A stretch of DNA of 64,000 nt from assembly GCA_033065855.1 (NCBI GenBank), contig JAVXUO010001228.1:62001-126000 (forward strand). Direction: 5' to 3'. Position numbers and translations under genes: made by a program. The notes under the pieces were generated by a model, which was not told where the DNA came from, did no database searches, and was given only the letters and a program-made list of their open reading frames with translations. Of this stretch, positions 22,480-40,436 are shown piece after piece (within the stretch, counting starts at the first letter, position 1; every line of letters begins with the position of its first letter). This DNA is from Escallonia rubra. Lineage: Eukaryota > Streptophyta > Magnoliopsida > Escalloniales > Escalloniaceae.

Positions 22480-23900
22480 GTTAAGCTTGTCGTGCATGAA
22501 AGTCATGGCCCGTGTGCCCATATATTAGCATCTTGATAGGAAATATAACTTATACACCTATGCTGGAAGAGCTTTTTGATGCCATTTTTTGGCATCATCA
22601 TTGCCCAGCAGATCTTAAGCCCTTAAAGATCTGAAGTAGCCAGTGTAGGTTCATAGCTATTCAAACTATATATCTCAGTGGACTTGAAGGTTACTTGCAC
22701 TTTTTTGGATCTTTATACGCCACATAAATTCCTTGATTAAGATGGACTAATCTTCAATCGTAGATGTTGGCTATGACCGATGCGCGAATAAGAGTTCAGT
22801 TGGTGGAGTCCAACTTGTTATTGTGATCCGGACTTCTGATTCTGTGGTTTTCCGGACCTTATCATATGAATATGGTCTATGGAACTTAACTTACTAGCTT
22901 ATAGAGTTATAGTGGGCTCCTTCGTCATTGCCCCTCCAGCATCTCTGAGCTTTGTTAAACATTGTACATGTAGCTGATTGCTTGTGAACTAGATGGCTAC
23001 ATATTTGTAATTCTTTCTAAAGATCTCGTGCTTAAGATCTTTGGAGTTCTTTTCTTCTTTGTTTTTTGTGTTCGTCTAAAAATTTGAGCATTGGATAATG
23101 CAATAGTGTGTACGTTGGTCCAATACTTACGTGGTGTTTGGATAGGCACACTAGTCTCAGTTGTTTCACCGAGTCTTCTGGCTACCCTTGCCTGCTTATC
23201 TAGTTATCTTCCCGCTTTTTGTTTCTCATGTATTACCTATCTGTTGTATGTATGTATAGGTTATTCACATTCTTTAAAGTTCTTCCTGGATTATATGTAT
23301 GAGGTTATTGAAGCAACATGAAGGAGTACCCTATGATGAGTTTTGGTGGTGTTGCTTGACATGTCCTGCAGATTTGTAAGTTTAGTTATAATTTGCCTCA
23401 ACAGCAATGAGCTCTTAACAAGGGCCTTAGGAAACAAGCAATGTTTTGGCATTACTTCTTGGTAAGTAGGCATCTGATTTTGCAGTGTTGTGGTCACCTG
23501 CAGCTACCTTGCGCCCTGCGACGTTGAGGCCTCCCCTTGTTTTTGAGCTACTCTCTTGGAAGCGGCAAGGTTTTGTTAGTAACAGGCATGCCCATGTATT
23601 AACATCTTGATAGGCAGGATAATGTATGATGAAAAAAGTGTGTAAGAACGGCAGGCTAATAATTGGTGGCACAATTTAGTGAATTATCTTAAGGAATCCT
23701 GCGATTAGAAACTTGGATTATGTTTGTCTAGAATCCTCCCAGACAGCCGGCATGTTAATAATTGGTGGTGCCGCGGCGGCGGCGTCATCATATAGGAAAC
23801 AAATTACCGGGGAGCAGATGTTCTGCTGAAGTTGAATATCCTTCGTACTCTGAGAAAACTGAAAAATATATTCGTATGGATTTGATGTTTTACAATCAAC
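22480..23900. other. PHT4;6 3' region and intergenic DNA; no gene seen
   Basis: The 3' UTR probably ends before about 23050. A motif after the stop (GCCCATATATTAGCATCTTG near 22517) recurs in changed form at 23589 (GCCCATGTATTAACATCTTG), and AATAATTGGTGG occurs twice (23656, 23756), so part of the flank seems duplicated. No open frame here resembles a known protein. Confidence 0.45.
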
Positions 23901-24345
23901 AGCAGACGAGATTTACAGAACGTAACAGCAGACAACTCAATCAAGCACAAGCAGGAGCCGTCTATAACTGAATTTAATTTACAACTATGTCCGCCAAAAA
24001 CTTCGTGGGGACAGTTCTTTTCTTTGTAAATTCATTGTTTAGTAATAAGATTTGATCTGATCTTTCACCCAAAAAAAACTTCGTGGGAACATGTAAATAA
24101 ACTCTGCGCACGAGTAGTCAATCCAACATTGAGTGACCGACGATGATTAGGCCAGGCTGTGGTTTTCTGAAACGTCGGCCTCTTAGGTTTGGGTGGACCC
24201 TCAACTTCATATAAAATTACTCTGTTATTATGGCTCGTGTAGTAACAGAGGGTGCTTTCTCATTGCTTTCCACCCAACTGAACCACTATACATAGGACTT
24301 GAGAGGAGGGGCCAACCTGCATCACAATAGGAACACGACATGCTC

Positions 24346-24392
24346 GATATATATATATATATATAGACACACACACACACACACACACACAC
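24346..24392. repeat. Compound AT/AC microsatellite
   Basis: About ten AT units followed by about thirteen AC units. Copy 2 has only a short AC run at the matching place (35738-35755). Confidence 0.9.
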
Positions 24393-39500: not shown

Positions 39501-40250
39501 TAACTTGCTAGCTTTAATTGGTTTCTAGCTTTGGAAGTAGTTCCTTAGAGAAACTGGTGTTAGGTTCTCTTTCGAATTTAGTGATGGGCAACCCTAAGAT
39601 TGCTACACTATCACCTGAAGCAACATGTTCGAAATGGCAAAACAGGCTTCCACGAAAATGAGGGTACGTAAGGCTGTGTAATCAGCCTTCCCTAGATCCT
39701 GCAATGGCTGGAACTTCATTCACAGAACGACCAATTTTTATATGCTGTCTTGTCTTCCCCCTCTCTTGTTGATTGCCGTGAATAAATATGTTGGTTTGAT
39801 CATCTTTCTTCTCCTCTTATTCTTTTCCCTGGTTAGGCATTTCCGAGAGACTCTCCCTTAGCCGTTGATATGTCAACTGCGATTCTGACGATATCAGAGA
39901 ACGGTGAACTTCAAAAGATTCACGATAAGTGGCTGAAGAAAAGAGGGTGCAGTTCAGAGGTCTCTTCGCTAGGGTCTGACCAACTTCACTTAAGCAGCTT
40001 CTGGGGGCTTTTCCTTGTATGTGGAGTAGCATTCTTTCTTGCTCTCCTGGTGTACTTCTGTTTGATGTTATGCCGATTCAACCGACATTATCCAGAAGTG
40101 TCTGGACCTTCTAGGCACGGCAGTTCGCACTCGGTGCGCCTCCAAAGATTCTTATCGTTTGCGGATGAAAAGGAAGAGGTATCAAAGAGCAAGTTGAAGA
40201 GAAAGCGCACGGAAATGTTGGAATCTGCTAATGGGAGGGAACTTTCATGA
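36529..40250 (+). CDS. GLR3.1: Glutamate receptor-like channel, GLR3 clade, copy 2 (902 aa, six coding exons)
   Basis: Tandem paralogue of the gene at 25828. Coding exons: 36529-36778, 36898-38237, 38327-38604, 38905-38936, 39036-39430, 39837-40250, each exactly the length of its partner. The frame is open throughout and the splice sites are conserved, so it looks functional. I count about 43 amino-acid differences in 902 (roughly 95 percent identity). Five lie within some 45 residues at the start of S1, part of the ligand-binding fold: here [10 protein letters not shown] and PYPVTYKF, against [10 protein letters not shown] and PYAVPYKF in copy 1, where copy 1 keeps the usual GLR3 residues. 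The pore segment reads STMFFAHRE (V to A). The start at [11 protein letters not shown] is a signal peptide and follows an acceptor-like TTTTCAG (36483-36489). It lies 505 bases upstream of homoserine kinase. Confidence 0.9.
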
Positions 40251-40436
40251 GTTTAATCGATGTATGCGAAGAAAACAGGCAACAGACACATATATTTATC
40301 TCTTACAAGGGTTGTCCGGATCCAAGAATGTCAATCTAAAGTACTTGTAGATTTTGTCTGAGAAATTATGTCAAGTGAAGCGATTAAGTTGTTGCCAAAA
40401 TCTGGACTAGCTTATTATCCTGGACAAAAACAAACT

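Follow-up and report, generated by a model that had tools for sequence, protein, structure and literature searches.

A probable single tandem duplication with subsequent internal loss at a GLR-HSK-MPT locus of Escallonia rubra

The window, i.e. the whole stretch of 64,000 nucleotides analysed here, is part of contig C2782 of the 566-Mb Escallonia rubra genome, and the comparisons cover this one genome. It harbors two glutamate receptor-like genes, GLR1 (block 23873-29682) and GLR2 (block 34870-40435), that are tandem copies with 95.2% identity over 4 kb (Table 1). GLR1 is classified as a putative GLR3-type glutamate receptor-like channel gene by its domains (ANF receptor and ligand-gated channel, found by Pfam in GLR1 scanned as a whole) and by the best solved relative of its exon 2 region, Glutamate receptor 3.4 (7lzh). 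A frameshift considered for GLR2 was rejected, as the 2-bp difference is located in intron 1. Downstream of GLR2 follow the homoserine kinase gene HSK, scoring above the NCBIfam cut-offs of TIGR00191 and NF002288, a sugar-porter gene on the opposite strand and an intact MPT gene, whose product we take to be a phosphate carrier. The sugar-porter gene, presumably TMT-like as judged from its exon pattern and large central loop (termed TMT below), contained Pfam Sugar_tr in two of the three ORFs scanned, the middle ORF (45307-46323) matching no Pfam family. The region between TMT and MPT at 54209-55609 is AT-rich and carries a 391-bp repeat pair at 96% identity together with shorter copies.

Table 1. 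Features of the two blocks (positions in the window)
Feature	Position	Strand	Remarks
Upstream arm of block 1 (GLR1 5' flank)	23873-25827	+	homology to ~34868-36528
GLR1	25828-29502	+	902 aa, open frame; spliced translation, Pfam ANF_receptor and Lig_chan
GLR1 exons	25828-26077, 26195-27534, 27624-27901, 28165-28196, 28295-28689, 29088-29502	+	
GLR1 3' flank	29503-29682	+	block 1 homology on the GLR side stops here
Scar in place of HSK, TMT and MPT exon 1	29683-32296		largely transposon sequence
Mutator-like element	30528-31943		exact 9-bp target duplication (30519-30527, 31944-31952), inverted ends
MITE nested in the Mutator-like element	31464-31844		many genomic copies (40 of 7742 candidates scored)
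Broken MPT	32297-33838	+	alignment to 59216-60551
Insertion in broken MPT exon 2	32709-32896		188 bp, B-box-like motif
Repeat R, 5' part	34411-34836	+	block 1; cut at 34836
Filler at duplication junction	34837-34869		~33 bp
Upstream arm of block 2 (GLR2 5' flank)	34870-36528	+	insertion at ~34993-35400
GLR2	36529-40251	+	902 aa, open frame; spliced translation
GLR2 exons	36529-36778, 36898-38237, 38327-38604, 38905-38936, 39036-39430, 39837-40251	+	
GLR2 3' flank	40252-40435	+	ends at last base common with block 1
HSK (homoserine kinase)	40756-41868	+	single exon, 370 aa; not in block 1
Sugar-porter gene, TMT-like	~42771-49051	-	ORFs and Pfam Sugar_tr; not in block 1
Intact MPT	57749-63691	+	291 aa; mitochondrial carrier, Pfam Mito_carr
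Intact MPT exons	57749-57886, 59495-59844, 59941-59984, 62938-63152, 63563-63691	+	
Repeat R, 3' part, in MPT intron 3	60570-60922	+	block 2; some copies match to 60973

Self-BLAST of the window confirmed the predicted tandem GLR pair with a broken MPT copy between its members in the same orientation, and revealed that the homology extends beyond the gene: upstream arm, gene and MPT part are present as adjacent copies, all on the plus strand. On the GLR side, 23875-24000 matched 34870-34992 (83.6%), 24689-25312 matched 35785-36469 (86.4%) and 25760-29682 matched 36461-40435 (95.2%, 3977 columns); on the MPT side, 32306-32708 matched 59225-59629 (95.8%), 32897-33838 matched 59628-60551 (90.1%) and 34702-34836 matched 60570-60705 (94.9%). 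Since the weakest of these six matches has an E value of 1e-31, they are not due to chance. Block 1 (23873-34836) thus consists of the upstream arm, GLR1, a 2.6-kb scar, the MPT piece and then transposon sequence; the duplicated part of block 2 (34870-60705) consists of the arm, GLR2, HSK, the minus-strand TMT and MPT, the intact MPT gene reaching past the duplicated part. In copy-2 coordinates the duplicated unit is approximately 25.8 kb long (34870-60705); the original unit may have been larger, with later trimming at the junction. Within the arms, 447 bp of the GLR1 5' region (25313-25759) are missing from GLR2 (edge at 36461-36469), and the edges share a short CTTC match; the difference perhaps arose by a microhomology deletion from GLR2 and not by an insertion into GLR1.

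The broken MPT copy with introns is real, although it is smaller than originally predicted: it starts at ~32297 inside intron 1 and comprises part of that intron, exon 2, intron 2, exon 3 and the start of intron 3, with no counterparts of exon 1 (57749-57886) and exons 4-5 (62938-63691). Both remaining exons are frameshifted: exon 2 bears the 188-bp insertion and two small ones of one and three bases, and a single base is deleted from exon 3. The 188-bp insertion, in which we presume to recognise a B-box-like motif, is possibly a SINE. Decay of this copy by small mutations is evident; the truncation itself most likely stems from the duplication breakpoint and from internal loss. The segment 34702-34842, previously read as MPT sequence, belongs from 34702 to 34836 to a dispersed repeat, R, which is nevertheless also present in intron 3 of the intact MPT gene.

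Repeat R matched many contigs (40 of 188 candidates scored) and has a length of ~0.7 kb among the other genomic copies compared. Its pieces in block 1 and block 2 overlap over 136 bp; within this overlap they share three variants that are absent from six other copies (the highest count of 28 pairs), and their identity of 0.956 is likewise the highest of the 28 pairs among the eight sequences (next 0.926). The two pieces therefore most likely derive from one insertion in MPT intron 3. Past the position equivalent to 34836, R continues in block 2 and in six of six other genomic copies examined; in block 1 alone it stops at 34836 and is followed by the filler and, from ~34870, by the GLR upstream arm. 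At this inner junction the unit's right end meets its left end, and the uncut R of block 2 runs beyond 60705. As the unit ends inside R in MPT intron 3, the MPT piece of block 1 would have been without its last two exons from birth, cut between exons 3 and 4. The MPT sequence had been thought to end about 60 bases from GLR2; instead, MPT/R stops ~33 bp before the arm, and the GLR2 start codon (36529) lies a further 1.7 kb beyond the arm start.

Between the two unit ends (GLR upstream region versus R/intron 3) no similarity was detected, at a resolution that leaves room for matches of a few bases or for later trimming. For this reason, the unequal homologous crossover of the original prediction is not supported as far as recombination between shared sequences is concerned; its other part, one event followed by loss, agrees with the present data. 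Recombination between two R copies was rejected as the cause, the GLR side of the junction having no continuation of R. The filler had no other match in the genome at an E value of 0.001 (33 bp being near the detection limit), and a search with 34837-34992 returned only its own place and the block 1 arm. Transposon-like sequences related to each other by 66-74% flank the junction on both sides (33854-33980 and 34996-35125), and related sequence recurs in MPT intron 3, downstream of R (35229-35359 versus 61077-61224).

The original prediction assumed an ancestral block GLR-HSK-MPT; from the positions of paralogues, GLR-HSK-TMT-MPT is the most likely order. The TMT loop region was found at three loci in the genome (three of three candidates scored). 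On contig C2176, a GLR pair is followed 74 kb downstream by TMT, and on contig C2886, TMT precedes an MPT paralogue by 42 kb, in both cases on the opposite strand as in block 2; the order on these contigs is read from the positions of matches. The paralogues show 59-73% identity to the window genes (GLR and TMT protein, MPT DNA) and are thus far older than the tandem copies, so that, already before the duplication, TMT very likely separated GLR from MPT. The window is the only place where a complete HSK was found, and the position of this gene in the ancestral order consequently follows block 2. A phosphate-transporter-like gene further upstream was discarded as a synteny marker, as it has no close paralogue in this genome. 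Literature searches found no paper naming at least two of At2g17260, At2g17265 and At2g17270, none naming both At4g35290 and At4g35300, and none combining homoserine kinase, glutamate receptor, synteny and tandem; the genomic surroundings of these Arabidopsis genes do not form part of the evidence.

Apart from the gene itself, 19 HSK matches occur in the genome, for part of which an association with transposons was established: a Mutator-like (Pack-MULE) family contains ~180 bp of HSK coding sequence (window 40866-41050). Inverted repeats of ~130-216 bp were present in five of the seven HSK-matching loci examined (L027, 1268-2411; L029, 1308-2141; L032, 706-1905; L028 and L030, ~683-1908, with 99% identity to each other and perhaps a single locus). 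Target duplications of 9 bp were exact in L027 and L032, matched at eight of nine positions in L029 and were not found in L028/L030. No paper naming both Pack-MULE and homoserine kinase was found in the literature.

In block 2, 18,780 bp separate the last shared base on the GLR side (40435) from the first shared base on the MPT side (59216); the counterpart in block 1 is 2,614 bp of other sequence. The predicted absence of HSK from block 1 is thus correct, but the missing interval also includes TMT and MPT exon 1. The search for HSK traces at 29700-32300, proposed as a check, gave none: tblastn of 29683-32296 with HSK, three of the four TMT ORFs and MPT exon 1 yielded a best E value of 0.72, and all five queries were recovered in block 2 as positive control. 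Besides the Mutator-like element and its nested MITE, the scar contains further dispersed pieces (30204-30518; 40 of 144 candidates scored). Some resemblance to the GLR-HSK spacer (40468-40518) was seen in 50 bp at 30124-30173 (76% identity, score 38, compared with a maximum of 30 in 300 shuffles and 32 at the next best place in the window); with softer scoring, its score was reached by none of 200 shuffles, and by 4 of 200 with joined flanks. This match is not collinear with a second match of 17 bp and is more diverged than the rest. Between 31953-32296 and the stretch upstream of 59216 there was no excess of similarity (81, 216 and 142 of 300 shuffles scored as high).

Taken together, we consider it highly probable that the locus arose by one tandem duplication, followed by internal loss in one or more deletions, filling with transposons and decay of MPT. 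A single duplication has the best support, which comes from the junction more than from divergence values, and the order and orientation of the pieces in the self-BLAST are those that a single tandem copy predicts. GLR, HSK, TMT and the first three MPT exons would have been copied once, the unit starting 1.7-2.0 kb before the GLR start codon and stopping within R in MPT intron 3. At the junction itself, the ends are joined without detectable shared sequence by ~33 bp of filler, and the repair was probably of an end-joining type. One copy would have retained everything; the other would later have lost the stretch from just past the GLR 3' end into MPT intron 1, and with it HSK, TMT and MPT exon 1, both their prior presence and their removal in a single deletion being inferences. 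Subsequently, transposons would have occupied the scar and what was left of MPT (exons 2-3) would have degenerated, with the frames of both GLR genes remaining open. Counting against this explanation, block 1 contains no remnant that would prove an earlier HSK or TMT there. The negative result for HSK, for three TMT ORFs and for MPT exon 1 across 29683-32296 would also fit a single replication-based event in which template switching skipped the 18.8 kb and made block 1 directly, HSK and TMT never having been present; the junction filler is compatible with such repair as well. This course of events would need two joins at once, while later deletion and transposon filling would look identical, and we regard it as unlikely; if true, the pattern would record a one-step complex rearrangement and not a duplication plus deletion.

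The divergence of the duplicated pieces gave a mixed picture. The GLR pair showed a Ka of 0.022, a Ks of 0.077 and a Ka/Ks of 0.29, a pairwise ratio that does not describe constraint on each copy separately; nonsynonymous and synonymous differences amounted to 45/2076 versus 46/630 (Fisher P=8e-9). At an assumed rate of 7e-9 substitutions per site and year, this Ks would correspond to approximately 5 million years. Silent divergence in the GLR part was 46/630 (7.3%) at synonymous sites, 30/421 (7.1%) at 4-fold sites, 42/963 (4.4%) in introns and 31/605 (5.1%) in the 5' flank (34/673 with the 68 bases beside the start codon), rising to 18/125 and 46/312 (14-15%) in the far upstream arm; in the MPT part, 76/934 (8.1%) of intron positions differed (7.2-7.3% with gap neighbours masked), 18/384 in exons and 6/135 in R. 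Synonymous sites of GLR agreed with MPT introns plus R (P=0.85; 0.76 masked). In contrast, GLR introns were below MPT introns (P=0.0008; 0.019 and 0.006 when 5 and 10 columns beside gaps were masked), the GLR 5' flank was lower than MPT introns (P=0.024), and GLR introns plus 5' flank were below MPT introns plus R (P=0.0014; masked 0.040 and 0.024). All three silent GLR classes together (synonymous, intron and 5' flank) compared with all MPT plus R columns gave P=0.065 (masked 0.50 and 0.43). Moreover, in the final 329 bp of the GLR pair none of the 199 silent sites differed (permutation P=0.005), and the 3' flanks were identical at all 180 compared bases, with two 2-bp gaps. The lack of silent differences at the 3' end points to a conversion tract or to constraint; to account for the uneven divergence along the unit, gene conversion or unequal constraint must be assumed. 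The equal divergence expected of one event was hence borne out for GLR synonymous sites against MPT introns and not for GLR introns, a mixture that one event could produce but that falls short of proof.

The intron values (4.4% versus 8.1%) are what two separate duplications might leave behind, i.e. a tandem duplication of GLR and an independent copying of the MPT piece into the gap, and GLR tandem pairs of other ages do occur elsewhere in the genome. Given that the MPT piece is oriented as predicted and terminates, within R, right at the GLR2 arm, and that GLR synonymous divergence equals MPT intron divergence, this origin appears quite improbable. The further GLR3-like tandem groups (L035/L036 on C2176, L037/L038 on C2887, L039/L040 on C1395) have pair identities of 88%, 87% and 98.8% at the DNA level; GLR tandem duplication has thus been repeated in this genome at different times. 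On contig C1461, a GLR fragment (G000:C1461:554425-554691; 86% identical, query aa 63-160, one internal stop) is possibly a recent pseudogene piece.

The assembly appears to contain overlapping neighbour contigs. In two clear overlap pairs, 37/6006 and 17/4554 positions differed (0.4-0.6%); in a third pair of unclear relation (C2127/C1343), 77/3280 differed (2.3%); and two places on contig C2008, with no clear overlap, differed at 43/2181 positions in the longest piece. The silent sites of the tandem copies (4.4-8% for GLR and MPT) exceed the clear overlap pairs about tenfold and C2127/C1343 two- to threefold; among the 83 GLR matches listed, the 81 other than the two tandem copies are all below 90%; and the junction holds filler instead of an overlap that an assembler could have used for joining, so that the placement of two haplotypes end to end, for which the overlapping contigs might speak, can practically be dismissed.

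Tandem segmental duplications that leave a partial gene at their breakpoint and are followed by gene loss, termed fractionation, are a known kind of change. As in such cases, the copies are arranged head to tail, a truncated gene marks the inner junction, redundant genes are gone from one copy and transposons occupy the scar; there is no essential difference, and the event type is ordinary for plant genomes and implies no new mechanism. Here, owing to the internal loss of 18.8 kb, the remaining GLR copy and MPT fragment resemble separate events until the junction is read. By the account in PMC10975470, eight of ten GLR duplications in habanero pepper are tandem, the ten pairs of its Table 2 have Ka/Ks values of 0.17-0.52, and large tandem shares of GLR are cited there for Arabidopsis, tomato and others. 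Compared with such tandem GLR expansion, the unit of E. rubra was multi-gene, its neighbours missing again from one copy. The GLR-HSK-TMT-MPT linkage is suggested to persist, in scattered form, within one genome. The locus provides a clear example of a junction that tells the number of events better than the divergence of the surviving pieces does, and of how a multi-gene duplication can come to resemble a single-gene GLR duplication.
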